In this document: positions 5,161 to 37,500 of the stretch, piece by piece
How the letters are laid out: each line of letters begins with the position of its first letter
Position numbering within the stretch: position 1 is the first letter of the stretch
Assembly: GCA_964019415.1 (NCBI GenBank)
Contig: OZ025888.1
Location: 616,001 to 680,000 of the forward strand
DNA: 64,000 nt
Direction: 5' to 3'
DNA from: Ianthella basta
Lineage: Eukaryota > Porifera > Demospongiae > Verongiida > Ianthellidae
Translations under genes and position numbers: made by a program
Notes under the pieces: model-generated
Told to the model about the DNA's origin: nothing
The model's database searches: none
The model's input: only the letters and a program-made list of their open reading frames with translations

Positions 5161-5623
5161 TGTACTAGAGAGGCAGCGGGAGGAACAACTAGGCTGATTC
5201 ACAAGAGACTGAAAGACATCCACTGTATTCCTTTTATGGTGCTGTTGCTCACCAAGGACACTGATTGGAGGGGAATACAGACAGAAACAGAATATAAGGG
5301 CCTGCCCATGCACACTTGCCCATGAATGCGCATTGAATGTACATTCAATTAACTATGTACAATGCAAGTCACGCAAAATGTTATGGTGAAGCCATATATA
5401 TTATGATGATGTAATGCAATGTTAATGTTTTGGTAGTTCGGATGTCCTGAGGTACAGACGATTGACAAGATATGAAACATATGGAAATTTAATGGATTTT
5501 AAGACAATTTTAAGGCCTTCACTTCATGAAGGTGCAGCCAAAGTTGGAAATATAAATGCAATAGCACCTTATCATTGCCATGACACATGTTATTGCTGTC
5601 ACGTGATACATTTGTGCCACCAT
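5161..5623. other. Intergenic stretch between ROCO gene and CARD gene
   Basis: 463 bp between the proposed ROCO start (5160) and the stop of the upstream CARD gene (5624), both minus strand. It must hold the 3' UTR of one and the promoter or 5' UTR of the other. I see no clear poly(A) signal, TATA box or coding frame. Confidence 0.5.
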
Positions 5624-13491: not shown

Positions 13492-16400
13492 ATCTTACCT
13501 CTTACCTCTTCATATCCTGCCAGATCTTACCTTGTCATATCTTGCCTTATATTACCTTGGCGTATCTTGCCAAATCTTGCCTAATCTTACCTTGTCATAT
13601 CTTGCCAAATCTTGCCTAATCTTACCTCTGTCATATCTTGACAAATCTTACCTAATCTTACCTTGTCATATCTTGCCAAATCTTGCCTAATCTTACCTTG
13701 TTGTATCTTGCCAGATCTCACCTTGTCGTATCTTGCCAGATCTTACCTTGGCGTATCTTGCCAAAACTTGCCAAATCTTACCTTGTCATATCTTGCCAAA
13801 TCTTGCCTGAATTTACCTCGTCATACCTTGCCAAATCTTGCCTAATCTTACCTCTTCATATCCTGCCAGATCTTACCTTGTCATATCTTGCTAAATCATG
13901 CCTTATTTTACCTTGGCGTATCTTGCCAAATCTTGCCTAATCTTACCTTGTCATATCTTGCCAAATCTTGCCTAATCTTACCTTGTCATATCTTGCCAAA
14001 TCTTGCCTAATCTCACCTTGTCGTATCTTGCCAGATCTTACCTTGTCGTATCTTGCCAGATCTTACCTTGTCTTATCTTGCCAAATCTTGCCTAATCTTA
14101 CCTTGGCGTATCTTGCCAAATCTTGCCTAATCTTACCTTCAGTTGTTGCATCTTGCCAAATCTTGCCTAAACTTACCTTGTCATATCTTGCCAAATCTTG
14201 TCTAATCTTACCTCTTCATATCCTGTCAGATCTTACCTTGTCATATCTTGCCAAATCTTGCCTAATCTTACCTTGGCGTATCTTGCCAAATCTTGCCTAA
14301 TCTTACCATGTCATATCTTGCCAAATCTTGCCTAATCTTACCTCTGTTGTATCTTGCCAAATCTTGCCTAGTCTTACCTTGTCATATCTTGCCAAATCTT
14401 GCCTAATCTTACCTCTGTCATATCTTGTCAAATCTTGCCTAATCTTACCTTGTCATATCTTGCCAAATCTTGCCTAATCTTACCTTGGCGTATCTAACCA
14501 GATCTTACCTTGTCGAATCTTGCCAGATCTTACCTTGTCATCTCTTGACAAATCTTACCTCGTCATATCTTGCCAAATCTTGCCTAATCTTACCTTGGCG
14601 TATCTTGACAAATCTTGCCAAATCTTCCCTCTGTCATATCTTGCCAAATCTTGCCTAATCTTATCTTGTCGTATATTGCCAAATCTTGCCTAATCTAACC
14701 TTGTTGTATCTTGCCAGATCTTACCTTGTCGTATCTTGCCAGATCTTATCTTGTCATATCTTGCCAAATCTTGCCAAATCTTACCTTGGCGTCTCTTGCC
14801 AAATCTTGCCAAATCCAACCTTGTCATATTTTGCCTAATCTTACCTTGTTGTATCTTGCCAAATCTTACCTTTTCGTATCTTGCCAGATCTTACCTTGTC
14901 AAATCTTGCCAGATCTTACCTTGTCGTATCTTGCCAGATCTTACCTTGTCATATCTTGCCAAATCTTGCCTAATCTTACCTTGGCGTATCTTGACAAATC
15001 TTGCCAAATCTTACCTTGTCATATCTTGCCAAATCTTGCCTAATCTAACCTTGTCGTATCTTGCCAGATCTTACCTTGTCGTATCTTGCCAGATCTTACC
15101 TTGTCATATCTTGCCAAATCTTGCCTAATCTTATATTGGCGTCTATTGCCAAATCCTGCCAAATCTTACCTTGTCATATTTTGCCAAATCTTGACTAATC
15201 TTACCTTGTCGTATCTTGCCTAATCTTACCTTGTCATATCTTGCCAAATCTTGCCTAATCTTACCTTGTCATATCTTGCCACATCTTGCCTTGTCATATC
15301 TTGCCAGATCTTACCTTGTCATATCTTGCCAAATATTGCCTAATCTTACCTTGGCGTATCTTGCCAAATCTTGCCAAATCTTACATTGTCATATCTTGCA
15401 AAATCTTGCCTAATCTTACCTTGTCGTATCTTGACAAATCTTGCCTAATCTTACCTTGTCATATCTTGCCAAATCTTGCCTAATCTAACCTTGTTGTATC
15501 TTGCCAGATCTTACCTTGTTGTATCTTGCCAGATCTTACCTTGTCATATCTTGCCAAATCTTGCCTAATCTTACCTTGGCGTCTCTTGCCAAATCTTGCC
15601 AAATCTTACCTTGTCATATTTTGCCAAATCTTACCTTATCATATCTTGCCAAATCTTGCAAATTCTTACCTTGTCATATCTTGCCAAATCTTGCCTAATC
15701 TTACCTTGTCGTATCTTGCCAAATCTTACCTTATCGTATCTTGCCAGATCTTACCTTGTCGAATCTCGCCAGATCTTACCTTGTCGTATCTTGCCAGATC
15801 TTACCTTGTCATATCTTGCCAAATCTTGCCTAATCTTACCTTGGCATATCTTGACAAATCTTGCCAAATCTTACCTTGTCATATCTTGCCAAATCTTGCC
15901 TAATCTAACCTTGTCGTATCTTGCCAGATCTTACCTTGTCGTATCTTGCCAGATCTTACCTTGTCATATCTTGCCAAATCTTGCCTAATCTTATATTGGC
16001 GTCTCTTGCCAAATCTTGCCAAATCTTACCTTGTCATATTTTGCCATATCTTGACTAATCTTACCTTGTCGTATCTTGCCAAATCTTACCTTGTCATATC
16101 TTGCCAAATCTTGCCTAATCTTACCTTGTCATACTTTGTCAAATCTTGCCTAATCTTACCTTGTCATATCTTGCCACATCTTGCCTTGTCATATCTTGCC
16201 AGATCTTACCTTGGCATATCTTGCCAAATTTTGCCTAATCTTACCTTGGCGTATCTTGCCAAATCTTGCATAATCTTACATTGTCATATCTTGCCAAATC
16301 TTGCCTAACCTTACCTTGTCGTATCTTGCCAAATCTTGCCTAATCTTACCTTGTCATATCTTGCCAAATCTTGCCTAATCTTACCTTGTCATATGTTGCC

Positions 16401-19400
16401 AAATCTTGCCTAATCTTACCTTGTCATATCTTGCCAAATCTTGCCTAATCTTACCTTGTCATATCTTGCCAAATCTTGCCTAATCTTACCTTGGCGTATC
16501 TTGCCAAATCTTGCCTAATCTTACCTTGGCGTATCTTGCCAAATCTTGCCTAATCTTACCTTCAGTTGTTGTATCTTGCCAAATCTTGCCTAAACTTACC
16601 TTGTCATATCTTGCCAAATCTTGCTTTATTTTACCTTGGCGTATCTTGCCAAATCTTGCCTAATCTTACATTGTCATATCTTGCCAAATCTTGCCTAATC
16701 TTACCTTGTCGTATTTTGCCAGATCTTACCTTGTCGTATCTTGCCAGATCATACCTGGTCATATCTTGCCAACTTGCCTAATCTTACCTTGTCGTATCTT
16801 GCCAAATCTTGCCTAATCTTACCTTGGCGTATCTTGACAAATCTTGCCAAATCTTACCTTGTCATATCTTGCCAAATCTTGCCTAATCTAACCTTGTCGT
16901 ATCTTGCCAGATCTTACCTTGTCGTATCTTGCCAGATCTTACCTTGTCATATCTTGCCAAATCTTGCCTAATCTTATATTGGCGTATCTTGCCAAATCTT
17001 GCTAAATCTTACCTTGTCATATTTTGCCATATCTTGACTAATCTTACCTTGTCGTATCTTGCCAAATCTTATTTTGTCATATCTTGCCAAATCTTGCCTA
17101 ATCTTACCATGTCATACCTTGCCAAATCTTGCCTAATCTTACCTTGTCATATCTTGCCACATCTTGCCTTGTAATATCTTGCCAGATCTTACCTTGTCAT
17201 ATCTTGCCAAATTTTGCCTAATCTTACCTTGGCGTATCTTGCAAAATCTTGCCAAATCTTACATTGTCATATCTTGCCATATCTTGACTAATCTTACCTT
17301 GTCGTATCTTGCCAAATCTTACTTTGTCATATCTTGCCAAATCTTGCCTAATCTTACCATGTCATACCTTGCCAAATCTTGCCTAATCTTACCTTGTCAT
17401 ATCTTGCCACATCTTGCCTTGTCATATCTTGCCAGATCTTACCTTGTCATATCTTGCCAAATTTTGCCTAATCTTACCTTGGCGTATCTTGCAAAATCTT
17501 GCCAAATCTTACCTTGTCATATCTTGCCAAATCTTGCCTAACCTTACCTTGTCGTATCTTGCCACATCTTGCCTAATCTTACCTTGTCATATCTTGCCAA
17601 ATCTTGCCTAATCTTACCTTGTCATATCTTGCCAAATCTTGCCTAATCTTACCTTGTCATATCTTGCCAAATCTTGCCTAATCTTACCTTGGCGTATCTT
17701 GCCAAATCTTGCCTAATCTTACCTTCAGTTGTTGTATCTTGCCAAATCTTGCCTAGTAAATTTATCTTGTAATATCTTGCCAAATCTTGCCTAATCTTAC
17801 CTTTGCGTATCTTGCCAAATCTTGCTTAATCTTACCTTGCCATATCTTGCCAAATCTTGCCTAATCTTACCTCTGTTGTATCTTGCCAAATCTTGCCAAA
17901 TCTAACCTTGTCATATTTTGCCAAATTTTGACTAATCTTACCTTTGCGTATCTTGCCAAATCTTGCTTAATCTTACCTTGCCATATCTTGCCAAATCTTG
18001 CCTAATCTTACCTCTGTTGTATCTTGCCAAATCTTGCCAAATCTAACCTTGTCATATTTTGCCAAATTTTGACTAATCTTACCTTGTCGTATCTTGCCAA
18101 ATCTTACCTTGTCATATCTTGCCAAATGTTACCTTATCATATCTTGCCAAATCTCGCGAAATCTTACCATGTCATATCTTGCCAAATCTTGCCTAATCTT
18201 ACCTTGTTGTATCTTGCCAAATCTTACCTTATTGTATCTTGCCAGATCTTACCTTGTCGAATCTTGCCAGATCTTACCTTGTCATCTCTTGCCAAATCTT
18301 ACCTTGTCATATCTTGCCAAATCTTGCCTAATCTTACCTTGGCGTATCTTGACAAATCTTGCCAAATCTTACCTTGTCATATTTTGCCAAATCTTACCTT
18401 ATCATATCTTGCCAAATCTTGCAAAATCTTACCATGTCATATCTTGCCAAATCTTACCTAATCTTACCTTGGCGTATCTAGCCAGATCTTACCTTGTCGA
18501 ATCTTGCCAGATCTTACCTTGTCATCTCTTGACAAATCTTACCTCGTCATATATTGCCAAATCTTGCCTAATCTTACCTTGGCGTATCTTAACAAATCTT
18601 GCCAAATCTTTCCTCTGTCATATCTTGCAAAACTTGCCTAATCTTACCTTGTCGTATCTTGCCAAATCTTGCCTAATCTAACCATCTTGTATCTTGCCAG
18701 ATCTTACCTTGTCGTATCTTGCCAGATCTTACCTTGTCATATCTTGCCAAATCTTGCCTAATCTTACCTTGGCGTCTCTTGCCAAATCTTGCCAAATCTT
18801 ACCTTGTCATATTTTGCCAAATCTTACCTTATCATATCTTGCCAAATCTAGCAAATTCTTACCTTGTCATATCTTGCCAAATCTTGCCTAATCTTACCTT
18901 GTCGTATCTTGCCAAATCTTACCTTTTCGTATCTTGCCAAATCTCACCTTGTCAAATCTTGCCAGATCTTACCTGGTCATATCTTGCCAGATCTTACCTT
19001 GTCATATCTTGCCAAATCTTGCCTAATCTTACCTTGGCGTATCTTGACAAATCTTGCCAAATCTTACCTTGTCATATCTTGCCAAATCTTGACTAATCTA
19101 ACCTTGTCGTATCTTGCCAGATCTTACCTTGTCGTATCTTGCCAGATCTTACCTTGTCATATCTTGCCAAATCTTGCCTAATCTTATATTGGCGTCTATT
19201 GCCAAATCCTGCCAAATCTTACCTTGTCATATTTTGCCAAATCTTGATTAATCTTACCTTGTCGTATCTTGCCAGATCTTACCTTGTCATATCTTGCCAA
19301 ATCTTGCCTAATCTTACCTTGTCATATCTTGCCACATCTTGCCTTGTCATATCTTGCCAGATCTTACCTTGTCATATCTTGCCAAATATTGCCTAATCTT

Positions 19401-19965
19401 ACCTTGGCGTATCTTGCCAAATCTTGCCAAATCTTACATTGTCATATCTTGCCAAATCTTGCCTAATCTTACCTTGTCGTATCTTGCCAAATCTTGCCTA
19501 ATCTTACCTTGTCATATCTTGCCAAATCTTGCCTAATCTAACCTTGTTGTATCTTGCCATATCTTACCTTGTCGTATCTTGCCAGATCTTACCTTGTCAT
19601 ATCTTGCAATATCTTGCCTAATCTTACCTTGTCGAATCTTGCCAAATCTTACCTTTTCGTATCTTGCCAGATCTTACCTTGTCAAATCTTGCCAGATCTT
19701 ACCTTGTCGTATCTTGCCAGATCTTACCTTGTCATATCTTGCCAAATCTTGCCTAATCTTACCTTGGCGTATCTTGACAAATCTTGCCACATCTTACCTT
19801 GTCATATCTTGCCAAATCTTGCCTAATCTAACCTTGTCGTATCTTGCCAGATCTTACCTTGTCATATCTTGCCAAATCTTGCCTAATCTTATATTGGCGT
19901 CTATTGCCAAATCTTGCCAAATCTTACTTTGTCATATTTTGCCAAATCTTGACTAATCTTACCTT
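13492..19965. repeat. Satellite block 1
   Basis: First uninterrupted block, starting after unique sequence at CCCATCTTGTCTAATC. The first ~150 bp contain the most diverged units, as expected at an array edge. The block ends in TAATCTTACCTT, which is repeated on the far side of the first insertion. Confidence 0.9.
13846..14470. repeat. 625-bp satellite segment duplicated at 49843-50467
   Basis: The series of variant units (CCTCTTCATATCC, then GCTAAATCATGCC, TAATCTCACC, TTGTCTTATC, TTCAGTTGTTGCATC) occurs in the same order at both places, 35,997 bp apart, with only a few differences. Shared rare variants mean recent copying over a long distance inside the array. Confidence 0.8.
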
Positions 19966-20034
19966 TGTTGCTTGAAGGATCACTGGGCTTATACCACCAA
20001 CCAACTACACCAGTATTGGTGTTACAGTTGGTTG
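19964..20034 (+). repeat. Left inverted arm of insertion 1
   Basis: 71 bp, the inverted counterpart of 20242-20312, with a single G/T difference at about position 19986. It ends internally at CAGTTGGTTG. Confidence 0.85.
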
Positions 20035-20115
20035 CTTCTATGTGTTGAAACCACAAGTGTTTTAGCTTGTGGTGAATACATATGGAGGTGGCATTCATCC
20101 TATTACCATCAGTAC

Positions 20116-20160
20116 GCCACACTGATGAGCCCCAATCAGGGCGAAACAGCTGTCTGTGGC
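20116..20160 (+). ncRNA. Type I hammerhead self-cleaving ribozyme
   Basis: All parts of the catalytic core are in order. Stem I 5' strand GCCACA (20116-20121); CTGATGA (20122-20128); stem II GCCC/GGGC (20129-20132 and 20139-20142) closed by CAATCA; GAA (20143-20145); stem III ACAG/CTGT (20146-20149 and 20150-20153) with no loop; cleavage-site C (20154, GTC triplet); stem I 3' strand TGTGGC (20155-20160). Predicted cleavage is between 20154 and 20155. Stem I continues outside an internal loop as CATCCTA (20096-20102) with TAGGATG (20174-20180), as in natural hammerheads that use loop contacts. The very short stem III is the form seen in Penelope-like elements and animal retrozymes, which may act as dimers. 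Activity is inferred, not shown. Confidence 0.9.
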
Positions 20161-20241
20161 TCTTCCATCTTTGTAGGATGTTAGGGGGAAGGGAATCACT
20201 GGCTGCCAACTTACCAACTTAATAGGGCCTTTTGGGCCTCC

Positions 20242-20312
20242 CAACCAACTGTAACACCAATACTGGTGTAGTTGGTTGGTGGTATAAGCCAAGTGATCCT
20301 TCAAGCAACAAA
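20242..20312 (-). repeat. Right inverted arm of insertion 1
   Basis: 71 bp starting CAACCAACTGTAACACC and ending GCTTGAAGG-type sequence in inverted form (CCTTCAAGCAACAAA). Pairs with the left arm along its whole length. Confidence 0.85.
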
Positions 20313-20354
20313 CCTAGCCTTTGCAGGGGCCTAACTGCAAGAGTCACTTTTGAA

Positions 20355-23300
20355 TAATCTTACCTTGTCGTATCTTGCCAAATCTTGCCTAATCTTACCT
20401 TGTTATACCTTGCCAAATCTTGCCTAATCTTACCTTGTCATATCTTGCCACATCTTGCCTTGTCATATCTTGCCAGATCTTACCTTGTCATATCTTGCCA
20501 AATATTGCCTAATCTTACCTTGGCGTATCTTGCCAAATCTTGCCAAATCTTACATTGTCATATCTTGCCAAATCTTGCCTAATCTTATCTTGTCGTATCT
20601 TGCCAAATCTTGCCTAATCTTACCTTGTCATATCTTGCCAAATCTTGCCTAATCTAACCTTGTTGTATCTTGCCAGATCTTACCTTGTCGTATCTTGCCA
20701 GATCTTACCTTGTCATATCTTGCCAAATCTTGCCTAATCTTACCTTGGCGTCTCTTGCCAAATCTTGCCAAATCTTACCTTGTCATATTTTGCCAAATCT
20801 TACCTTATCATATCTTGTCAAATCTTGGAAATTCTTACCATGTCATATCTTGCCAAATCTTGCCTAATCTTACCTTGTCGTATCTTGCCAAATCTTACCT
20901 TATCGTATCTTGCCAGATCTTACCTTGTCGTATCTTGCCAGATCTTACCTTGTCGTATCTTGCCAAATCTTGCCTAATCTTACCTTGGCGTATCTTGCCA
21001 AATCTTGCCAAATCTTACCTTGTCATATCTTGCCAAATCTTGCCTAATCTAACCTTGCCGTATCTTGCCAGATCTTACTTTGACGTATCTTGCCAGATCT
21101 TACCTTGTCATATCTTGCCAAATCTTGCCTAATCTTATATTGGCGTCTCTTGCCAAATCTTGCCAAATCTTACCTTGTCATATTTTGCCATATCTTGACT
21201 AATCTTACCTTGTCGTATCTTGCCAAATCTTACCTTGTCATATCTTGCCAAATCTTGCCTAATCTTACCTTGTCATACCTTGCCAAATCTTGCCTAATCT
21301 TACCTTGTCATATCTTGCCACATCTTGCCTTGTCATATCTTGCCAGATCTTACCTTGGCATATCTTGCCAAATTTTGCCTAATCTTACCTTGGCGTATCT
21401 TGCCAAATCTTGCCAAATCTTACATTGTCATATCTTGCCAAATCTTTCCTAACCTTACCTTGTCGTATCTTGCCACATCTTGCCTAATCTTACCTTGTCA
21501 TATCTTGCCAAATCTTGCCTAATCTTACCTTGTCATATCTTGCCAAATCTTGCCTAATCTTACCTTGTCATATCTTGCCAAATCTTGCCTAATCTTACCT
21601 TGGCGTATCTTGCCAAATCTTGCCTAATCTTACCTTCAGTTGTTGTATCTTGCCAAATTTTGCCTAATCTTACCTTGGCATATCTTGCCAAATCTTGCCA
21701 AATCTTACATTGTCATATCTTGCCTGATCTTGCTTATAATATTACCTTGTCGTATCTTGCCAAATCTTGCCTAATCTTACCTCTGTCATATCTTGCCAAA
21801 TCTTGCCTAATCTTTCCTTGTCATATCCTGCCAAATCTAGCCTAATCTTACCTTGTCATATCTTGTCAAATCTTGCCTAATCTTACCTTCTCATATCCTG
21901 CCAAATCTTGCCTAATCTTACCTTGTCATATCTTGCCAAATCTTGCCTAATCTTACCTTGTCATATCTTGCCACATCTTGCCTTGTCATATCTTATTAGA
22001 TCGTACCTTGTCATATCTTGCCAAATTTTGCCTAATCTTACCTTGGCGTATCTTGCCAAATCTTGCCTAATCTTACATTGTCATATCTTGCCAAATCTTG
22101 CATAATCTTACCTTGTCGTATCTTGCCAAATCTTGCCTAATCTTACCTCTGTCATATCTTGCCAAATCTTGCCTAATTTTACCTTGTCATATCTTGCCAA
22201 ATCTTGCCTAATCTTACCTTGTCATATCTTGCCAAATCTTGCCTAATCTTATCTTGTCATATCTTGCCAAATCTTGCCTAATCTTACCTTGGCGTATCTT
22301 GCCAAATCTTGCCTAATCTTACCTTCAGTTGTTGTATCTTGCCAAATCTTGCCTAAACTTACCTTGTCATATCTTGCCAAATCTTGCTTTATTTTACCTT
22401 GGCGTATCTTGCCAAATCTTGCCTACTCTTACATTGTCATATCTTGCCAAATCTTGCCTTGTCATATCTTGTCAGATCTTACCTTGTGATATCTTGCCAA
22501 ATCTTGCCTAATCTTACCTTCTCATATCTTGCTAAATCTTGCCTAATCTTACCTTGGCGTATCTTGACAAATCTTGCCTAATCTTACCTTCAGTTCTTGT
22601 ATCTTGCCAAATCTTGCCTAATCTTACCTTGTCGTATCTTGCCAAATCTTGCCTAATCTTATCTTGTCGTATCTTGCCAGATCTTACTTTGTCGTATCTT
22701 GCCTTATCTTACCTTGGCATATCTTGCCAAATCTTGCCTAATCTTACCTTGGCGTATCTTGACAAATCTTGCCAAATCTTACCTTGTCATATCTTGCCAA
22801 ATCTTGCCTAATCTAACCTTGTCGTATCTTGCCAGATCTTACCTTGTCGTATCTTGCCAGATCTTACCTGGTCATATCTTGCCAACTTGCCTAATCTTAC
22901 CTTGGCGTATCTTGCCAAATCTTGCCTAATCTTACCTTGGCGTATCTTGACAAAATCTTGCCAAATCTTACCTTGTCATATCTTGCCAAATCTTGCCTAA
23001 TCTAACCTTGTCGTATGTTGCCAGATCTTACCTTGTCGTATCTTGCCAGATCTTACCTTGTCATATCTTGCCAAATCTTGCCTAATCTTACATTGGCGTC
23101 TCTTGCCAAATCTTGCCAAATCTTACCTTGTCATATTTTGCCATATCATGACTAATCTTACCTTGTCGTATCTTGCCAAATCTTACCTTGTCATATCTTG
23201 CCAAATCTTGCCTAATCTTACCATGTCATATCTTGCCAAATCTTGCCTAATCTTACCTTGTCATATCTTGCCACATCTTGTCATGTCATATCTTGCCAGA

Positions 23301-26300
23301 TCTTACCTTGTCATATCTTGCCAAATTTTGCCTAATCTTACCTTGGCGTATCTTGCCAAATCTTGCCAAATCTTACATTGTCGTATCTTGCCAAATCTTG
23401 CCTAACCTTACCTTGTCGTATCTTGCCACATCTTGCCTAATCTTACCATGTCATATCTTGCCAAATCTTGTCTAATCTTACCTTGTCATATCTTGCCAAA
23501 TCTTGCCTAATCTTACCTTGTCATATCTTGCCAAATCTTACCTTGGCGTATCTTGCCAAATCTTGCCTAATCTTACCTTGGAGTATCTTGCCAAATCATG
23601 CCTAATCTTACATTCAGTTGTTGTATCTTGCCAAATCTTGCCTAAACTTACCTTGTCATATCTTGCCAAATCTTGCTTTATTTTACCTTGGCGTATCTTG
23701 CCAAATCTTGCCTAATCTTACATTGTCATATCTTGCCAAATCTTGCCTAATCTTACCTTGTCGTATCTTGCCAGATCTTACCTTGTCGTATCTTGCCAGA
23801 TCTTATATTACCTGGTCATATCTTGCCAACTTGCCTAATCTTACCTTGGCGTATCTTGCCAAATCTTGCCAAATCTTACATTGTCATATCTTGCCAAATC
23901 TTGCCTAATCTTATCTTGTCGTATCTTGCCAAATCTTGCCAAAGGTAATCTTACCTTGTCGTATCTTGCCAGATCATACCTTGTCATATCTTGTCAGATC
24001 TTACCTTGTCATATCTTGCCAAATTTTGCCTAATCTTACCATGGCGTATCTTGCCTAATCTTGCCAAATCTTGCCAAATCTTACATTGTCATTTCTTGCC
24101 AAATCTTGCCTAATCTTACCTTGTCGTATCTTGCCAAATCTTGCCTAATCTTACCTCTGTCATATCTTGCCAAATCTTGACTAATCTTCCCTTGTCATAT
24201 CTTGCCAAATCTAGCCTAATCTTACCTTGTCATATCTTGTCAAATCTTGACTAATCTTACCTTGTCATATCTTGCCAAATCTTGCCTAATCTTACCTTCT
24301 GTTGTTGTATCTTGCCAAATCTTGACTAATCTTACCTTGTCATATCTTGCTACATCTTGCCTTGTCATATCTTCCCAGATCTTACCTTGTCATATCTTGC
24401 CAAATTTTGCCTAATCTTACCTTGTCATATCTTGCCAAATCTTGCCTAATCTTACCTTGTCATATCTTGCCAAATCTTGCCTAATCGTGCCTTGGCGTAT
24501 CTTGCCAAATCTTGCCTAATCTTACCTTGTTGTATCTTGCCAGATCTTACCTTGTCGTATCTTGCCAGATCTTACCTCGTCATAACTTGCCAACTTGCTT
24601 AATCTTACCTTGGCGTATCTTGCCAAATCTTGCCTAATCTTACCTTGTCATATCTTGCCAAATCTTGCCAAAGGTGATCTTACCTTGTCGTATCTTGCCA
24701 GATCTTACCTTGTCATATCTTGCCAGATCTTACCTTGTCATATCTTGCCAAATTTTGCCTAATCTTACCTTGGCGTATCTTGCCAAATCTTGCCAAATCT
24801 TACATTGTCATATCTTGCCTAATCTTGCCTATAATCTTACCTTGTCGTATCTTGCCAAATCTTGCCTAATCTTACTTCTGTCATATCTTGCCAAATCTTG
24901 CCTAATCTTTCCTTGTCATATCCTGCCAAATCTAGCCTAATCTTACCTTGTCATATCTTGTCAAATCTTGCCTAATCTTATCTTGTCATATCTTGTCAAA
25001 TCTTGCCTAATCTTACCTTGTCATATCTTGCCAAATCTTGCCTAATCTTACCTTGTCATATCTTGCCACATCTTGCCTTGTCATATCTTATTAGATCGTA
25101 CCTTGTCATATCTTGCCAAATTTTGCCTAATCTTACCTTGGCGTATCTTGCCAAATCTTGCCATATCTTACATTGTCATATCTTGCCGAATCTTGCCTAA
25201 TCTTACCTTGTCGTATCTTGCCAAATCTTGCCTAATCTTACCTTGTCATATCTTGCCAAATCTTGCCTAATCTTACCTTGTCATATCTTGCCAAATCTTG
25301 CCTAATCTTACCTTGTCATATCTTGCCAAATCTTGCCTAATCTTGCCTTGTCATATCTTGCCAAATCTTGCCTAATCTTACCTTGTCATATCTTGCCAAA
25401 TCTTGCCTAATCTTACCTTGGCGTATCTTGCCAAATCTTGCCTAATCTTACCTTCAGTTGTTGTATCTTGCCAAATCTTGCCTAAACTTACCTTGTCATA
25501 TCTTGCCAAATCTTGCTTTATTTTACCTTGGCGTATCTTGCCAAATCTTGCCTACTCTTACATTGTCATATCTTGCCAAATCTTGCCTTGTCATATCTTG
25601 TCAGATCTTACCTTGTCATATCTTGCCAAATCTTGCCTAATCTTACCTTCTCATATCTTGCCAAATCTTGCCTAATCTTACCTTGGCGTATCTTGACAAA
25701 TCTTGCCTAATCTTACCTTCAGTTCTTGTATCTTGCCAAATCTTGCCTAATCTTACCTTGTCGTATCTTGCCAAATCTTGCCTAATCTTATCTTGTCGTA
25801 TCTTGCCAAATCCTACTTTGTCGTATCTTGCCTTATCTTACCTTGGCATATCTTGCCAAATCTTGCCTAATCTTACCTTGGCGTATCTTGACAAATCTTG
25901 CCAAATCTTACCTTGTCATATCTTGCCAAATCTTGCCTAATCTAACCTTGTCGTATCTTGCCAGATCTTACCTTGTCGTATCTTGCCAGATCTTACCTTG
26001 TCATATCTTGCCAAATCTTGCCTAATCTAACCTTGGCGTCTCTTGCCAAATCTTACCTTGTCATATTTTGCCAAATCTTACCTTTTCATTTCTTGCCAAA
26101 TCTTGCGAAATCTTACCATGTCATATCTTGCCAAATCTTACCTTGTCATATCTTGCCAAATCTTACCTTATCATATCTTGCCAAAATCTTGCGAAATCTT
26201 ACCATGTCATATCTTGCCAAATCTTGCCTAATCTTACCTTGTGGTATCTTGCCAAATCTTACCTTATTGTATCTTACTGGATCTTACCTTGTCGAATCTT

Positions 26301-29300
26301 GCCAGATCTTACCTTGTCATCTCTTGCCAAATCTTACCTTGTCATATCTTGACAAATCTTGCCTAATCTTGCCTTGGCGTATCTTGACAAATCTTACCTC
26401 TGTCATATCTTGACAAATCTTGCCTAATCTTACCTTGGCATATCTTGCCAAATCTTGCCTAATCTTACCTTGGAGTATCTTGCCAAATCTTGCCTAATCT
26501 TACCTTCAGATGTTGTATCTTGCCAAATCTTGCCTAGTATACTGACCTTGTCATATCTTGCCAAATCTTGTCTAATCTTACCTCTTCATATCCTGCCATA
26601 TCTTACCTTGTCATGTCTTGCCAAATCTTGCCTAATCTTACCTTGTCATATCTTGCCAAATCTTGCCTAATCTAACCTTGGCATCTCTTGCCAAATCTTG
26701 CCTAATCTAACCTTGTCATATTTTGCCAAATCTTGACTAATCTTACCTTGTCGTATCTTGCCAAATCTTACCTTGTCATATCTTGCCAATTCTTACCTTA
26801 TCATATCTTGCCAAATCTTGCAAAATCTTACCATGTCATATCTTGCCAAATCTTGCCTAATCTTACCTTGTCGTATCTTGCCAAATCTTACCTTATAGTA
26901 TCTTGCCAGATCTTACCTTGTCGAATCTTGCCAGATCTTACCTTGTCATCTCTTGCCAAATCTTACCTTGTCATATCTTGCCAAATCTTGCCTAATCTTA
27001 CCTTGGCGTATCTTAACAAATCTTGCCAAATCTTACCTATGTCATATCTTGCCAAATCTTGCCTAATCTTACCTTGTCGTAACTTGCCAAATCTTGCCTA
27101 ATCTTACCTTGTCGTATCTTGCCAGATATTACCTTGTCGTATCTTGCCTTATCTTACCTTGGCATATCTTGCCAAATCTTGCCTAATCTTACCTTGGCGT
27201 ATCTTGACAAATCTTGCCAAATCTTACCTTGTCATATCTTGCCAAATCTTACCTTGTCGTATCTTGCCAGATCTTACCTTGTCGTATCTTGCCAGAACTT
27301 ACGTTGTCATATCCTGCCAAATCTTGCCTAATCTTACCTTGGCGTCTCTTGCCAAATCTTGCCAAATCTTACCTTGTCATATTTTGCCAAATCTTACCTT
27401 ATCATATCTTGCCAAATCTTGGAAATTCTTACCATGTCATATCTTGCCAAATCTTGCCTAATTTTACCTTGTCGTATCTTGCCAAATCTTACCTTATCAT
27501 ATCTTGCCAGATCTTACCTTGTCGAATCTTGCCAGATCTTACATTACCGTATTGTGCCAGATCTTACCTTGTCATATCTTGCCAAATCTTGCCAAACCTT
27601 ACCTTGTCATATCTTGCGAAATCTTGCCTAATCTAATCTTGTCGTATCTTGCCAGATCTTACCTTGTTGTATCTTGCCAGATCTTACCTTGTCATATCTT
27701 GCCAAATCTTGCCTAATCTTACCTTGTCATATCTTACAAAATCTTGCCTAATCTTACCTTGTCATATTTTGCCACATCTTGCCTTGTCATATCTTGCCAG
27801 ATCTTACCTTGCCATATCTTGCCAAAAATTGTCTAATCTTACCTTGGCGTATCTTGCCAAATCTTGCCTAATCTTACCTTGTCATATCTTTCCAAATCTT
27901 GCCTAATCTTACCTTGTCATATCTTGCCAAATCTTGCCTAATCTTACCTTCTCATATCTTGACAAATTTTTTTAATCTAACCTTGTCATATATTGCCAAA
28001 TCTTGCCTAATCTTACCATGGCGTATCTTGCCTAATCTTGTCATATCTTGTCAGATCTTACCTTGTCATATCTTGCCAAATTTTGCCTAATCTTACCTTG
28101 GCGTATCTTGCCAAATCTTGCCAAATCTTACATTGTCATATCTTGCCAAATCTTGCCTAATCTTACCTTGTCGTATCTTGCCAAATCTTGACTAATCTTA
28201 CCTTGTCATATCTTGCCAAATCTTGCCTAATCTTACATTGTCATATCTTGCCAAATATTGCCTAATCTTACCTTGTCATATCTTGCCAAATCTTGCCTAA
28301 TTTTACCTTGTCATATCTTGCCAAATCTTGCCTAATCTTACATTGTCATATCTTGCCAAATCTTGCCTAATCTTACCATGTCATTTCTTGCCACATCTTG
28401 CCTAATCTTACCTTGTCATATCTTGCCAAATCTTGCCTAATCTTACCTTGTCATCTCTTGCCAAATCTTGCCTAATCTTGCCTCGGCGTATCTTGCCAAA
28501 TCTTGCCTAATCTTACCTTGTTGTATCTTGCCAGATCTTACCTTGTCGTATCTTGCCAGATCTTACCTCGTCATATCTTGCCAACTTGCCTATTCTTACC
28601 TAGGCGTATCTTGCCAAATCTTGCCTAATCTTACCTTGCCATATCTTGCCAAATCTAGCCAAATCTTACCTTGTCATATCTTGCCAAATCTTGCCTAATC
28701 TTACTTTGTCGTATCTTGCCAAATCTTGCCTAATCTTACCTCTGTCATATCTTGCCAAATCTTGACTAATCTTACCTTGTCATATCTTGCCAAATCTAGC
28801 CTAATCTTACCTTGTCATATCTTGTCAAATCTTGACTAATCTTACCTTGTCATATCTTGCCAAATCTTGCCTAATCTTACCTTCTGTTGTTGTATCTTGC
28901 CAAATCTTGACTAATCTTACCTTGTCATATATTGCCACATCTAGCCTTGTCATATCTTGCCACATCTTACCTTGTCATATCTTGCCAAATTTTGCCTAAT
29001 CTTACCTTGGCGTATCTTGCCAAATCTTGCCAAATCTTACATTGTCATATATATCTTGCCAAATCGTGTCTAATCTTACCTTGTCATACCTTGCCAAATC
29101 TTGCCTAATCTTACCTTGTCATATCTTGCCAAATCTTGCCTAATCTTACTTTGTCATATCTTGCCAAATCTTACCTTGTCATTTCTTGCCAAATCTTGCC
29201 TAATCTTACCTTGTCATATCTTGCCAAATCTTGCCTAATCTTACCTTGTCATCTCTTGCCAAATCTTGCCTAATCTTACCTTGGCGTATCTTGCCAAATC

Positions 29301-32300
29301 TTGCCTAATCTTACCTTGTTGTATCTTGCCAGATCTTACCTTGTCGTATCTTGCCAGATCTTACCTCGTCATATCTTGCCAACTTGCCTAATCTTACCTT
29401 GGCATATCTTGCCAAATCTTGCCTAATCTTACCTTGTCATATCTTGCCAAATCTTGCCAAAGGTGATCTTACCTTGTCGTAACTTGCCAGATCTTACCTT
29501 GTCATATCTTGCCAAATCTTGCCTAATCTTACCTTGTCATATCTTGCCAAATCTTGCCTAATCTTACCTTGTCATATCTTGCCAAATTTTGCCTAATCTT
29601 ACCTTGGCGTATCTTGCCAAATCTTGCCAAATCTTACATTGTCATATCTTGCCAAATCTTGCCTAATCTTACCTTGTCGTATCTTGCCACATCATGCCTA
29701 ATCTTACCTCTGTCATATCTTGCCAAATCTTGCCTAATCTTACCTTGTCATATCTTGCCACATCTTACCTTGTCATATCTTGCCAGATCTTACCTTGTCA
29801 TATCTTGCCAAATTTTGCCTAATCTTACTTTGGCGTATCTTGCCAAATCTTGCCAAATCTTACCTTGTCATATCTTGCCAAATCTTGCCTAATCTTACCT
29901 TGGCATATCTTGCCAAATCTTGCCTAATCTAACCTTGTCATTTCTTGCCACATCTTGCCTAATCTTACCTTGTCATATCTTGCCAAATCTTGCCTAATCT
30001 TACCTTGTCATCTCTTGCCAAATCTTGCCTAATCTTGCCTCGGCGTATCTTGCCAAATCTTGCCTAATCTTACCTTGTTGTATCTTGCCAGATCTTACCT
30101 TGTCGTATCTTGCCAGATCTTACCTCGTCATATCTTGCCAACTTGCCTATTCTTACCTTGGCGTATCTTGCCAAATCTTGCCTAATCTTACCTTGCCATA
30201 TCTTGCCAAATCTAGCCAAATCTTACCTTGTCATATCTTGCCAAATCTTGCCTAATCTTACCTTGTCGTATCTTGCCAAATCTTGCCTAATCTTACCTCT
30301 GTCATATCTTGCCAAATCTTGACTAATCTTACCTTGTCATATCTTGCCAAATCTAGCCTAATCTTACCTTGTCATATCTTGTCAAATCTTGACTAATCTT
30401 ACCTTGTCATATCTTGCCAAATCTTGCCTAATCTTACCTTCTGTTGTTGTATCTTGCCAAATCTTGCCTAATCTTACCTTGTCATATATTGCCACATCTA
30501 GCCTTGTCATATCTTGCCACATCTTACCTTGTCATATCTTGCCAAATTTTGCCTAATCTTACCTTGGCGTATCTTGCCAAATCTTGCCAAATCTTACATT
30601 GTCATATATATCTTGCCAAATCGTGTCTAATCTTACCTTGTCATACCTTGCCAAATCTTGCCTAATCTTACCTTGTCATATCTTGCCAAATCTTGCCTAA
30701 TCTTACTTTGTCATATCTTGCCAAATCTTGCCTAATCTTACCTTGTCATATCTTGCCAAATTTTGCCTAATCTTACCTTGGCGTATCTTTTCGTATCTTG
30801 CCAGATCTTACCTTGTCAAATCTTGCCAGATCTTACCTTGTCGTATCTTGCCAGATCTTACCTTGTCATATCTTGCCAAATCTTGCCTAATCTTACCTTG
30901 GCGTATCTTGACAAATCTTGCCAAATCTTACCTTGTCATATCTTGCCAAATCTTGCCTAATCTTACCTTGTCATATCTTGCCAAATCTTGCCTAATCTTA
31001 CCTTGTCATCTCTTGCCAAATCTTGCCTAATCTTACCTTGGCGTATCTTGCCAAATCTTGCCTAATCTTACCTTGTTGTATCTTGCCAGATCTTACCTTG
31101 TCGTATCTTGCCAGATCTTACCTCGTCATATCTTGCCAACTTGCCTAATCTTACCTTGGCATATCTTGCCAAATCTTGCCTAATCTTACCTTGTCATATC
31201 TTGCCAAATCTTGCCAAAGGTGATCTTACCTTGTCGTAACTTGCCAGATCTTACCTTGTCATATCTTGCCAAATCTTGCCTAATCTTACCTTGTCATATC
31301 TTGCCAAATCTTGCCTAATCTTACCTTGTCATATCTTGCCAAATTTTGCCTAATCTTACCTTGGCGTATCTTGCCAAATCTTGCCAAATCTTACATTGTC
31401 ATATCTTGCCAAATCTTGCCTAATCTTACCTTGTCGTATCTTGCCACATCATGCCTAATCTTACCTCTGTCATATCTTGCCAAATCTTGCCTAATCTTAC
31501 CTTGTCATATCTTGCCACATCTTACCTTGTCATATCTTGCCAGATCTTACCTTGTCATATCTTGCCAAATTTTGCCTAATCTTACTTTGGCGTATCTTGC
31601 CAAATCTTGCCAAATCTTACCTTGTCATATCTTGCCAAATCTTGCCTAATCTTACCTTGTCGTATCTTGCCAAATCTTGCCTAATCTTACCTTGTCATAT
31701 CTTGCCAAATCTTGCCTAATCTTACCTTGTCATATCTTGCCAAATCTTGCCTAATCTTACCTTGTCGTATCTTGCCAAATCTTGCCTAATCTTACCTTGT
31801 CATATCTTGCCAAATCTTGCCTAATCTTACCTTGTCATATCTTGCCAAATCTTGCTTAATCTTACCTTGGCGTATCTTGCCAAATCTTGCCTAATCTTAC
31901 CTTCAGCTGTTGTATCTTGCCAAATCTTGCCTAAGGTTACTTTGTCATATCTTGCCAAATCTTGCCTAATCTTACCTTGTCATCTCTTGCCAAATCTTGC
32001 CTAATCTTATATTGGCGTATCTTGCCAAATCTTGCCTAATCTTACCTTGTTGTATCTTGCCAGATCTTACCTTGTTGTATCTTGCCAGATCTTACCTCGT
32101 CATATCTTGCCAACTTGCCTAATCTTACCTTGTCGTATCTTGCCAAATCTTGCCTAATCTTACCTTGTCATATCTTGCCAAATCTTGCCAAAGGTGATCT
32201 TACCTTGTCGTAACTTGCCAGATCTTACCTTGTCATATCTTGCCAAATCTTGCCTAATCTTACCTTGTCATATCTTGCCAAATCTTGCCTAATCTTACCT

Positions 32301-33828
32301 TGTCATATCTTGCCAAATTTTGCCTAATCTTACCTTGGCGTATCTTGCCAAATCTTGCCAAATCTTACATTGTCATATCTTGCCAAATCTTGCCTAATCT
32401 TACCTTGTCATATCTTGCCAAATCTAGCCTAATCTTACCTTGTCATATCTTGTCAAATCTTGCCTAATCTTACCTTGTCATATCTTGCCAAATCTTGCCT
32501 AATCTTACCTTGTTATATCTTGCCAAATCTTGCCTAATCTTACCTTGTCATATCTTGCCACATCTTGCCTTGTCATATCTTGCCAGATCTTTCCTTGTCA
32601 TATCTTGCCAAATTTTGCCTAATCTTACCTTGGCGTATCTTGCCAAATCTTGCCAAATCTTACATTGTCATATCTTGCCAAATCTTGCCTAATCTTACCT
32701 TGTCGTATCTTGCCAAATCTTGCCTAATCTTACCTTGTCATATCTTGCCAAATCTTGCCTAATCTTACCTTGTCGTATCTTGCCAAATCTTGCCTAATCT
32801 TACCTTGTCATATCTTGCCAAATCTTGCCTAATCTTACCTTGTCATATCTTGCCAAATCTTGCCTAATCTTACCTTGTCATATCTTGCCAAATCTTGCCT
32901 AATCTTACCTTGTGATATCTTGCCAAATCTTGCCTAATCTTACCTTGGCGTATCTTGCCAAATCTTGCCTAATCTTACCTTCAGCTGTTGTATCTTGCCA
33001 AATCTTGCCTAAAGTTACTTTGTCATATCTTGCCAAATCTTGCTTCATTTTACCTTGGCGTATCTTGCTAAATCTTGCCTAATCTTACCTTCAGTTGTTG
33101 TATCATGCCAAATCTTGCCTAATCTTACCTTGTCGCATCTTGCCTAATCTTATCTTTTCGTATCTTGCCAGATCTTACCTTGTCGTATCTTGCCTTATCT
33201 TACCTTGGCATATCTTGCCAAATCTTGCCTAATCTTACCTTGGCATATCTTGCCAAATCTTGCCAAATCTTACCTTGTCATATCTTGCCAAATCTTGCCT
33301 AATCTAACCTTGTCGTATCTTGCCAGATCTTACCTTGTCGTATCTTGCCAGATCTTATCTTGTCATATCTTGCCAAATCTTGCCTAATCTAACCTTGGCG
33401 TCTCTTGCCAAATCTTGCCAAATCTTACCTTGTCATATTTTGCCAAATCTTACCTTATTTTATCTTGCCAAATCTTGCGAAATCTTACCATGTCATATCT
33501 TGCCAAATCTTAACTTGTCATATCTTGCCAAATCTTACCTTATCATATCTTGCCAAAATCTTGCGAAATCTTACCATGTCATATCTTGCCAAATCTTGCC
33601 TAATCTTACCTTGTGGTATCTTACCAAATCTTACCTTATTGTATCTTGCCAGATCTTACCTTGTCGAATTTTGCCAGTTCTTACCTTGTCATCTCTTGCC
33701 AAATCTTACCTTGTCATATCTTGCCAAATATTGCCTAATCTTGCCTTGGCGTATCTTGACAAAACTTGCCAAATCTTACCTCTGTCATATCTTGCCAAAT
33801 CTTGCCTAATCTTACCTTGGCATATCTT
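20355..33828. repeat. Satellite block 2
   Basis: 13.5 kb between the two insertions. It contains long second-level duplications, for example about 21,690-22,870 repeated at about 24,790-26,000 (offset near 3.1 kb), and 28,440-29,900 repeated at 29,997-31,657 (offset 1,557 then 1,757 bp, the second copy carrying about 200 extra bases). Confidence 0.9.
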
Positions 33829-33829
33829 T

Positions 33830-34019
33830 TTTTATGAGGCGTTGATGAGCATTCACGTAGCTAAAAAGGAAAGTTCAAGTAAAACGTTTCGACCACGAGG
33901 GTCTTCATCAGTTACAAAACTGAAGTGTACAGGTACAGGGATTGGCTTTATACAGCAGTATGTGTTCAAAAAGGCGGGAAAGTCAGGTGACAGGTGACAG
34001 GTCATGAGTGAATAATAGA
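33830..34019 (-). repeat. Left arm (3' terminal repeat) of the Penelope-like insertion
   Basis: 190 bp, begins TTTTATGAGGCGTTGATGAG on the plus strand and ends GAATAATAGA. Downstream of the remnant ORF in minus-strand orientation, where a Penelope-like terminal repeat is expected. Confidence 0.8.
33879..33915 (-). ncRNA. Hammerhead-like motif in left arm of insertion 2
   Basis: Same motif as at 34420-34456, on the minus strand (TCATCAG at 33905-33911 is the complement of CTGATGA). Here it is in the same orientation as the remnant ORF, downstream of it. Same caveats: one inserted A before stem II and a two-pair stem III. Confidence 0.55.
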
Positions 34020-34145
34020 AATAATAATAATAATAATAATAATAATTAATCATAAGAATAAAATGATAGTAATATAGTAGTATTGATGATAAGTCATAGA
34101 GTTGATATAATGAGAATATGTTGACCTGTCTGTTTTTTGTAATGG

Positions 34146-34316
34146 TCATGGTGGGTTCAATATGGGGTTCCACATTGATGGCAGGCATAGACCACGGTCC
34201 AAGTTCATGGTCTTCTTGTTGCGTTGGATATGGATGGCCTCTGTTGTCTTCCTTTGCCAAAACCCATTGACGCATCTTCTGACCTTGGCTTCATCCCAAT
34301 TGATAGCATGTTTGGT
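34146..34316 (-). pseudogene. C-terminal remnant of a Penelope-like GIY-YIG endonuclease
   Basis: Minus-strand frame from 34316 to a TGA at 34146-34148, 56 codons. It contains HAINWDEAKV, FWQRKTTEAIHIQRN, KKTMNLDRGLCLPSMWNPIL. The pattern H..xIxWxxAxV, RxxxEAxxI and MNxDxGxxLxxxWxPxL is the usual end of GIY-YIG domains carried by Penelope-like reverse-transcriptase proteins. No start codon and no upstream domain: the inverted arm replaces them. Role in this copy: none, it is a relic. Confidence 0.65.
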
Positions 34317-34505
34317 CTATTATTCACTCATGACCTGTCACCTGTCACCTGACTTTCCCGCCTATTTGAACACATACTGCTGTATAAAGCCAATCCCTGT
34401 ACCTGTACACTTCAGTTTTGTAACTGATGAAGACCCTCGTGGTCGAAACGTTTTACTTGAACTTTCCTTTTTAGCTACGTGAATGCTCATCAATGCCTCA
34501 TAAAA
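34316..34505 (+). repeat. Right, inverted arm of the Penelope-like insertion
   Basis: 190 bp, from TCTATTATTCACTCATGACC to GCCTCATAAAA. Inverted relative to the left arm with few mismatches. It abuts the remnant coding sequence directly at 34316, as in 5'-truncated copies with an inverted terminal segment. Confidence 0.8.
34420..34456 (+). ncRNA. Hammerhead-like motif in right arm of insertion 2
   Basis: Stem I GTAA/TTAC (34420-34423 and 34453-34456), CTGATGA (34424-34430), stem II GACC/GGTC (34432-34435, 34441-34444), GAA (34445-34447), stem III AC/GT (34448-34451), cleavage nucleotide T (34452). One extra A (34431) sits between CTGATGA and stem II, and stem III is only two pairs, so activity as a monomer is doubtful. 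This is the reduced form expected in Penelope-like terminal repeats. Confidence 0.55.
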
Positions 34506-34539
34506 CCTGCTAGACAACGTAGAATGAGCCTCTACCACA

Positions 34540-37500
34540 TTGGCATATCTTGCCAAATCTTGCCTAATCTTACCTTGGAGAATCTTGCCAAATCTTGCCT
34601 TATCTTACCTTCAGTTGTTGTATCTTGCCAAATCTTGCCTAGTAAACTGACCTTGTCATATCTTGCCAAATCTTGTCTAATCTTACCTCTTCATATCCTG
34701 CCAGATCTTACCTTGTCATGTCTTGCCAAATCTTGCCTAATCTTACCTTGTCATATCTTGCCAAATCTTGCCTAATCTAACCTTGGCATCTCTTGCCAAA
34801 TCTTGCCTAATCTAACCTTGTCATATTTTGCCAAATCTTGACTAATCTTACCTTGTCGTATTTTGCCAAATCTAACCTTGTCTAATCTTGCCAAATCTTA
34901 CCTTATCATATCTTGCCAAATCTTGCAAAATCTTACCATGTCATATCTTGCCAAATCTTGCCTAATCTTATCTTGTCGTATCTTGCCAAATCTTACCTTA
35001 TAGTATCTTGCCAGATCTTACCTTGTCGAATCTTGCCAGATCTTACCTTGTCATATCTTGCCAAATCTTACCTTGTCAAATCTTGCCAAATCTTGCCTAA
35101 TCTTACTGTGTCATATCTTGCCAAATCTTGCCTAATCTTACCTTATCATATCTTGCCAAATCTTGCCTAATCTTACCTTGGCGTATATCTTGCCAAATCT
35201 TGCCTAATCTTACCTTCAGTTGTTGTATCTTGCCGAATCTTGCCTAAACTTACCTTGTCATATCTTGCCAAATCTTGCTTTATTTTACTTTGGCGTATCT
35301 TGCCAAATCTTGCCTACTCTTACATTGTCATATCTTGCCAAATCTTGCCTTGTCATATCTTGCCAGATCTTACCTTGTCATATCTTGCCAAATCTTGACT
35401 AATCTTACCTTCACATATCTTGCCAAATCTTGCCTAATCTTACCTTGACGTATCTTGCCATATCTTGCCTAATCTTACCTTCAGTTGTTGTATCTTGCCA
35501 AATCTTGCCTAATCTTACCTTGTCGTATCTTGCCAAATCTTGCCTAATCTTATCTTGTCGTATCTTGCCAGATCTTACCTTGTCGTATCTTGCCTTATCT
35601 TACCTTGGCATATCTTGCCAAATCTTGCCTAATCTTACCTTGGCGTATCTTGACAAATCTTGCCAAATCTTACCTTGTCATATCTTGCCAAATCTTGCCT
35701 AATCTAACCTTGTCGTATCTTGCCAGATCTTACCTTGTCGTATCTTGCCAGATCTTACCTTGTCATATCTTGCCAAATCTTGCCTAATCTAACGTTGGCG
35801 TCTCTTGCCAAATCTTGCCAAATCTTACCTTGTCATATTTTTCCCAATCTTACATTATCATATCTTGCCAAATCTTGCGATATCTTACCATGTCATATCT
35901 TGCCAAATCTTACCTTGTCATATCTTGCCAAATCTTGCCTAATCTTACCTTGTCATATCTTGCCAAATCTTGCCTAATCTAACCTTGGCATCTCTTGCCA
36001 AATCTTGCCTAATCTAACCTTGCCATATTTTGCCAAATCTTGACTAATCTTACCTTGTCAAATCTTGCCAAATCTTACTTTGTCATATTTTGCCAAATCT
36101 TACCTTATCATATCTTGCCAAATCTTGCAAAATCTTACCATGTCATATCTTGCCAAATCTTGCCTAATCTTACCTTGTCGTATCTTGCCAAATCTTACCT
36201 TATAGTATCTTGCCAGATCTTACCTTGTCGAATCTTGCCAGATCTTACCTTGTCACATCTTGCCTAATCTTACCTTGTCATATCTTGCCAAATCTTGCCT
36301 AATCTTACCTTGGCGTATCTTGACAAATCATGCCAAATCTTACCTATGTCATATCTTGCACAATCTTGCCTAATCTTACCTTGTCGTATCTTGCCAAATC
36401 TTGCCTAATCTTACCTTGTCGTATCTTGCCAGATCTTACCTCATCGTATCTTGCCTTATCTTACCTTGGCATATCTTGCCAAATCTTGCCTAATCTTACC
36501 ATGGCGTATCTTGCCAAATCTTGCCAAATCTTACCTTGTCATATCTTGCCAAGACTTGCCTAATCTAACCTTGTTGTATCTTGCCAGATCTTACCTTGTC
36601 GTATCTTGCCAGATCTTACGTTGTCACATCTATCAAAATCTTGCCTAATCTTACCTTGGCGTCTCTTGCCAAATCTTGCCAAATCTTACCTTGTCATATT
36701 TTGCAAAATCTTACCTTATCATATCTTGCCAAATCTTGCAAATTCTTACCATGTCATATCTTGCCAAATCTTGCCTAATTTTACCTTGACGTATCTTGCC
36801 AAATCTTACCTTATCGTATCTTGCCTTGTCGAAACTTGCCAGATCTTGCCTAATCTTACCTTGTCATATCTTGCCAAATTTTGCCTAATCTAAACTTGGC
36901 ATCTCTTGCCAAATCTTGCCTAATCTAACCTTGTCATATTTTGCCAAATTTTGACTAATCTTACCTTGTCGTATCTTGCCAAATCTTGCAAAATCTTACC
37001 ATGTCATATCTTGCCAAATCTTGCCTAATCTTACCTTGTCGTATCTTGCCAAATCTTACCTTATAGTATCTTGCCAGATCTTACCTTGTCGAATCTTGCC
37101 AGATCTTACCTTGTCATCTCTTGCCTAATCATACCTTGTCATATCTTGCCAAATCTTGCCTAATCTTACCTTGGCGTATCTTGACAAATCTTGCCAAATC
37201 TTACCTATGTCATATCTTGCCAAATCTTGCCTAATCTTACCTTGTCGTATCTTGCCAAATCTTGCCTAATCTTACCTTGTCGTATCTTGCCAGATCTTAC
37301 CTTGTCGTATCTTGCCTTATCTTACCTTGGCATATCTTGCCAAATCTTGCCTAATCTTACCATGGCGTATCTTGCCAAATCTTGCCAAATCTTACCTTGT
37401 CATATCTTGCCAAATCTTGCCTAATCTAACCTTGTTGTATCTTGCCAGATCTTACCTTGTCGAATCTTGCCAGATCTTACGTTGTCATATGTTGCAAAAT

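Follow-up and report, generated by a model that had tools for sequence, protein, structure and literature searches.

A hammerhead-bearing repeat family with Penelope-type insertion ends in the sponge Ianthella basta

Type I hammerhead ribozymes within short, tandem, non-coding units of animal genomes are already known as metazoan non-LTR retrozymes (Cervera and de la Pena 2020, PMC7229834), which are described there as having units of 150-450 nt, a GC content below 50%, target duplications longer than 4 bp, and strongly self-paired circles. The LTR retrozymes of plants (PMC4918200) are likewise non-autonomous and hammerhead-bearing, but they are distinguished by type III hammerheads, LTRs and 4-bp duplications (PMC7229834). 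Penelope-like elements (PLEs) were put forward as likely movers of the animal retrozymes on the basis of shared ribozymes and co-occurrence (PMC7761336, PMC7229834), and a review of the field states that retrozyme repeats possess no motif revealing the mobilizing retrotransposon (PMC7761336). The hammerheads of both PLEs and retrozymes are reported to have a weak or missing helix III (PMC7761336, PMC6155905), and dimeric cutting is reported both for related hammerheads that lack the loop (PMC7761336) and for the minimal hammerheads of PLEs (Lunse et al. 2017, PMC5785218).

The manner in which PLEs insert is illustrated by PAc from Anolis, whose protein cuts and extends both target strands, and whose reverse transcription begins at two adjacent internal sites, such that the stretch between them forms the genomic tail (PMC11167929). 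Similarly, the PLEs of A. vaga are described with an inverted pLTR, a 31-bp tail that is optionally present on one inverted pLTR, and duplications of 8-10 bp (PMC3846280).

The locus described here lies within 64,000 nt of the Ianthella basta genome (contig OZ025888.1, positions 616,001 to 680,000, forward strand), and this whole stretch is referred to as the window. An initial annotation of the window had claimed a complete type I hammerhead with a loop-less stem III, contained in an insertion within a satellite. The relevant features are listed below, where a unit position is the window position minus 19980.

13500..57513, no strand assigned: satellite with a 35-bp unit that hosts the insertion
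19954..19965, no strand assigned: left target-site duplication TAATCTTACCTT, an exact 12-bp repeat that shares its final two bases with the element end (microhomology)
19964..20034, minus strand: short inverted arm, unit positions 332 to 262 reversed, ending at the short (no-tail) start site
20033..20354, plus strand: direct arm, unit positions 53 to 374, which bears the hammerhead and overlaps the inverted arm by 2 nt
20096..20180, plus strand: hammerhead including the 7-bp outer helix of the initial annotation, its parts located in the sequence
20116..20160, plus strand: type I hammerhead core with helix III ACAG/CTGT loop-less (Rfam RF00163, 38.7 bits)
C20154 / T20155, within the 20116..20160 core, plus strand: cut predicted from established hammerhead chemistry
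20313..20354, plus strand: 42-nt tail, present at one insertion end only, between the two putative reverse-transcription start sites
20355..20366, no strand assigned: right target-site duplication TAATCTTACCTT

Every part of the ribozyme that had been claimed is found at its proposed position. Helix I is formed by GCCACA (20116-20121) and TGTGGC (20155-20160), helix II by GCCC/GGGC, and helix III by the four base pairs of ACAG/CTGT, which are not closed by a loop; the core pieces of this copy are CTGATGA, GAA and GTC. The Rfam comparison that the initial annotation had proposed returned Hammerhead_1 at 20116-20160 (+) with 38.7 bits against a cut-off of 34 (E 3.1e-6), and no second Rfam family exceeded its own cut-off in the 64 kb. 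The match, which passes the RF00163 gathering cut-off, contains the conserved core CUGAUGA and GAA, an NUH cut site and helices I-III, and is open at helix I. The strands of the outer helix are CATCCTA (20096-20102) and TAGGATG (20174-20180).

The satellite setting was confirmed as well. The window copy of the 374-nt-unit repeat occupies 19964-20354 of a 44-kb array of the 35-bp satellite, between the two copies of the 12-bp duplication, and its 71-bp inverted arm (19964-20034) is 99% complementary to 20242-20312. Upon excision of the insert and one duplication copy, the site matches other satellite stretches over 120/120 positions without gaps (95.8%), whereas keeping both duplication copies introduces 13 gap positions into the satellite alignment. 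Satellite of the same kind also hosts at least five other fetched loci, four of them independent. A second non-satellite insertion in the 35-bp satellite, at 33829-34543, contains a run of AAT, and a short segment of open frame recurs in it in inverted orientation. Elsewhere in the window, at 469-5352 (-), Roc-COR, leucine-rich-repeat and ankyrin segments lie in neighbouring frames and likely belong to one Roco-type gene.

What the initial annotation had missed is the identity of the insertion, which belongs to a dispersed repeat family whose ends are of the Penelope type. A search of the assembly (209 Mb in 96 contigs) with the insert as query gave at least 303 family matches genome-wide, with 40 of 809 candidates scored, and 37 family loci (L027-L046 and L053-L069) were fetched. 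The family unit is 374 nt in length, non-coding and tandem, with a GC content of 48%. Its longest open stretch is 85 aa in the window element and 84 aa in three joined units, and an open reading frame for reverse transcriptase and GIY-YIG endonuclease is absent from the element. As it possesses no long frame, the element is not itself a PLE. One of the fetched loci, L046, is a 5.5-kb array indicative of satellite-like growth, in which there are at least 16 units, most with damaged hammerheads (one Rfam match is above the cut-off), and part of the units have deletions over unit positions 126-175 and 226-250; a satellite-like array of the element is likewise found at C22:2923491-2932669. The long array L046 was excluded from the end analysis, which therefore covered 36 loci and the window, or 38 insertions in all, since L030 contains two.

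Taken alone, the window copy, bounded as it is by 71-bp inverted repeats and a 12-bp duplication, might be read as a MITE, a DNA transposon that depends on a foreign transposase, whose termini would be the 71-bp inverted repeats, whose target duplication would be approximately 12 bp, and in which the hammerhead would occur by chance. Across the family, however, the inverted arm varies from tens of nucleotides to several units, the units are tandem, the two outer ends are separated by 42 nt of the unit, and 9 of the 38 copies have no inverted arm, so that a MITE is a highly improbable explanation. The 38 insertions do not share constant inverted repeats at their two termini, unlike what is expected of a DNA transposon.

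The ends instead obey a different rule. Twenty-nine of the 38 insertions are arranged head-to-head, combining an inverted arm with a direct arm on the opposite side, and each arm may be shorter than one unit or extend beyond three. One outer end falls at unit position 374 and the other at unit positions 323-341 in 28 of these 29 copies. The flanks of L030b and L043 repeat those of L030a and L042, and with these duplicates dropped, the independent count is 26 of 27. None of the 29 head-to-head copies has two tails or two short ends, and the one exception to the rule is L069, in which one end is of the short type and the second arm is incomplete. An internal copy of the tail is present in 19 of the 27 independent head-to-head copies (counted by hand), and these 19 were thus not sampled for a terminal tail; all of them follow the one-tail rule, for which the chance probability at independent ends is at most 1.9e-6. 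When all 26 are conditioned on at least one tail, the corresponding probability is 2.6e-5 at equal site use, but would not be small if tails were rare. The nine insertions that are not head-to-head have no inverted arm, and end with the tail in three cases and without it in six (five independent). Exact duplications of 11-16 bp flank 26 of the 29 head-to-head copies; those of L037 and L055 are 8 bp, and that of L069 is 2 bp.

The inner arm junctions, by comparison, are variable among head-to-head copies. In the analysis of inner cDNA ends, which comprised 33 insertions after exclusion of L030b, L043 and L060 as duplicates and of L056 and L069 as complex, only 1 of 58 ends fell exactly at the hammerhead cut, compared to 0.16 expected; the script had placed the cut at 172.5, and its correct unit position is 174/175. 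This lack of enrichment implies that the cut linear monomer is not the usual template. Inner ends were seen to cluster at unit positions 300-330 (18/58, 4.8 expected) and 41-53 (6/58, 2.0 expected), and these clusters perhaps correspond to stops of the reverse transcriptase near strong hairpins or at the next start site.

The PLEs of the same genome have the same outer layout. GIY-YIG matches in the genome often occur as minus/plus pairs; 12 PLE loci were fetched, and the ends were measured at L047-L052, with L070 scanned in addition. Both L051 and L052 contain an 844-aa frame with RVT_1 and GIY-YIG, and 652 relatives were identified among 7,999 scored candidates, including an Anolis protein at 37% identity. 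Each of the six loci measured (L047-L052) is wholly or in part head-to-head, and has a single 32-38-nt tail together with 9-15-bp duplications. The scan of L070 revealed no convincing target duplication. Together with L074 and L075, this locus represents a further PLE group, in which the arms of L070 are head-to-head over 767 bp and a degenerate hammerhead-like stretch is present.

A pattern match located a hammerhead-like motif, CTGATGA or CTGAAGA followed by GAAACGTC, in L047-L052, L071 and L073, and this is tentatively regarded as the hammerhead-like motif of the genome's PLEs; Rfam reported no hammerhead in L047-L050 at E values up to 0.5. The element and the fetched PLE loci gave no significant BLAST match. 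Nor was any of 15 comparisons of element tails with PLE tails significant, the best being equalled by 13 of 1000 shuffles and those of the window copy by 336-783 of 1000.

Head-to-head copies could also have been produced by a different enzyme, should the element be SINE-like and moved by a LINE. LINE twin priming yields inverted copies with target duplications, and the genome contains many RVT_1 loci, at least 150. Yet the insertions use two fixed start sites, one per strand, and where their arms overlap, these copy the same stretch of the unit. In addition, a poly-A or simple-repeat 3' end is absent among the listed junctions, and the layout is matched by the genome's own PLEs. Mobilization by a LINE is accordingly judged to be quite unlikely, and insertion by a PLE enzyme is preferred.

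In the 20 loci L027-L046, 49 hammerheads score above the Rfam cut-off, on both strands and following the direction of the arms, and all 74 family copies identified by a pattern lack a helix III loop, although that pattern permitted a loop of up to 10 nt. Beyond the family, a genome search with RF00163 listed at least 18 matches, at least 13 of them above the cut-off, with 73 of 23,027 candidates scored. Two of the 18 listed matches, L012 and L019, belong to the window family, and the other 16 are divergent.

For L016, L020, L022 and L024-L026, alignment to the window element is confined to the ribozyme region, over 30-51 nt. A comparison of 16 hammerheads showed that these six differ from the window type on both sides of helix I pairs 1, 3 and 4, with GCCACA/TGTGGC in the window type and ACTGCA/TGCAGT in the six. 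These pairs were counted by script, because MAFFT alignment of looped and loop-less hammerheads misplaced the 3' strand of helix I. As all of the paired changes lie on one split between groups, they amount to few events, and one or two helix I pairs are broken in each of L014, L015, L017, L018 and L021. The loci L016, L020, L022, L024, L025 and L026 themselves have a looped helix III, a different helix I, and surroundings that otherwise do not align to the element. A one-sided tail of 41-50 nt with duplications of 9-15 bp also occurs at four independent insertions of the other hammerhead subfamilies, namely L010, L011, L014/L015 (one site) and L021; L023 is the same site as L014/L015, and gave a weaker duplication match of 8 bp. 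Together, the 49 above-cut-off matches in 20 related loci and the paired helix I changes in divergent copies indicate that the hammerhead is more than a chance occurrence, as had been argued from the window copy alone.

Within the young family, the ribozyme shows no extra conservation, with a mismatch of 2.2% as compared to 1.9% elsewhere in 71 unit alignments from which L046 was excluded, where the ribozyme window was 2 nt off the true one. With L046 included, the ribozyme seemed worse conserved than the rest, owing to the deletions in that array. These values raise the question as to whether the hammerhead might be a relic, whereby the element spreads as proposed here with a ribozyme that is inactive in cells, and the tandem units derive from DNA or from read-through RNA. 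Such a reading would also accommodate the uniformly loop-less helix III and the location of inner cDNA ends away from the cut, and PAc PLEs with hammerhead mutations still insert (PMC11167929). Conversely, the different subfamilies retain the core as well as helices I and II, with paired changes in helix I, the ribozyme is the only aligning part in several divergent copies, and the dimeric cutting reported for related loop-less hammerheads speaks against inactivity for want of a loop. On balance, a relic ribozyme is considered somewhat unlikely, though appreciably more plausible than either of the two alternatives above.

The 374-nt unit has a predicted folding energy of -159.7 kcal/mol, compared to -111.9 kcal/mol for shuffled sequences (z -8.4; 0 of 100 shuffles as good). 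The 101-nt ribozyme region on its own is no more stable than shuffled sequences (z -0.36), although helices I and II and the outer helix appear in its lowest-energy fold. The circular 374-nt unit likewise retains these three helices at lowest energy, and helix III is absent. Tail hairpins folded no better than shuffles in 3 of 3 cases.

The initial annotation had further proposed that the outer helix closes an internal loop at which loop-loop contacts are made. This suggestion is supported in part, in that the 7-bp helix appears in the lowest-energy folds of the 101-nt region, the 374-nt unit and the circular unit. However, a scan for the longest outer helix selected a different one in the window copy, of 11 bp with wobbles, which was equalled by 13 of 500 shuffles. 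In the same scan, a 14-bp outer helix was identified in 5 of 16 copies (L009, L010, L011, L013 and L021; 0 of 500 shuffles for each), and the remaining 10 had unrelated helices. The outer helix is thus general in one subfamily only, that of the 14-bp helix.

Taken together, the results favor the interpretation, to which we assign a probability of roughly 0.7, that the element is a small, non-coding retroelement of the type known as animal retrozymes, inserted into the satellite by a PLE enzyme. Insertion by a PLE is the simplest account because the element has the exact PLE layout without coding capacity. In the mechanism that we propose, the 374-nt unit would be transcribed as a multimer or be present as a circle, and its type I hammerhead would cut between units. 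As helix III is loop-less, this cut would probably require two ribozymes that share an extended helix III, as suggested by the anatomy and by the literature. Such dimeric action would agree with the reviews that describe helix III of PLE and retrozyme hammerheads as weak or missing. A PLE protein with reverse transcriptase and GIY-YIG domains would then cut the target strands approximately 12 bp apart, as the observed duplication suggests.

Each cut strand would subsequently prime one cDNA on the element RNA, at one of two internal sites that lie 42 nt apart, one per strand; the two fixed ends are observed, and it is from these that we infer the priming. The two cDNAs would finally be joined head-to-head at variable inner points, in keeping with the variable junctions. 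Because one and the same part of the unit is represented in both arms, the process requires either two templates or adjacent units on a single one. The window copy would be the minimal product of this process, in which the short site would have given rise to a 71-nt cDNA and the tail site to one of 322 nt.

The family resembles metazoan non-LTR retrozymes in having a type I hammerhead in a tandem non-coding unit, and its unit length of 374 nt, GC content of 48% and duplications of 11-16 bp (at 26/29) all lie within the ranges given for that class (PMC7229834). The strong self-pairing described for metazoan retrozyme circles has its counterpart in the predicted folding of the 374-nt unit. The principal difference is that the insertions are mostly head-to-head with a one-sided 42-nt tail, and the word "inverted" does not occur in the main text of PMC7229834.

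With Penelope/Poseidon PLEs, such as PAc (PMC11167929) and Pen from A. vaga (PMC3846280), the family shares an inverted partial copy, a tail at one end, a short duplication, tandem or partial-tandem units, and a hammerhead in the unit, as those elements are described. Unlike PLEs, the window element encodes neither a reverse transcriptase nor an endonuclease, and shares no significant sequence with the fetched PLEs. Its insertions have each mark of a PLE product, namely an inverted partial copy, a one-sided tail of the 30-40-nt class and a short duplication, the tail of 42 nt in the family being slightly longer than that of 32-38 nt in the genome's PLEs. The loop-less helix III is likewise common to the minimal PLE hammerheads of PMC5785218, from which the window ribozyme differs in its four helix III pairs, 6-bp helix I and conserved flank; the pattern-matched motif of the genome's PLEs has ACGT at helix III. 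Its similarity to the plant LTR retrozymes is confined to the non-autonomous, hammerhead-bearing state. In the open-licence literature, no report was found of PLE-type ends on retrozymes, no paper on a hammerhead ribozyme in Porifera, and none on twin priming or head-to-head insertion with Penelope and a hammerhead.

The insertions themselves bear a PLE signature, which points to the enzyme that probably mobilizes animal retrozymes. As this genome still holds PLEs with a complete-length frame, the question of mobilization can be tested with one protein and one RNA. The family also preserves, in naturally occurring copies, the way in which the two start sites are employed during PLE insertion. 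More tentatively, and at a likelihood that we place below even, animal retrozymes in general might be SINE-like parasites of Penelope, in which a paired PLE protein would make one cDNA per strand, one from each of two sites approximately 42 nt apart, in a compact, probably circular RNA generated by the hammerhead. If this is true, the one-tail rule, described until now as an optional feature of PLEs, would instead be mandatory, with the labour divided between both halves of the insertion machinery.
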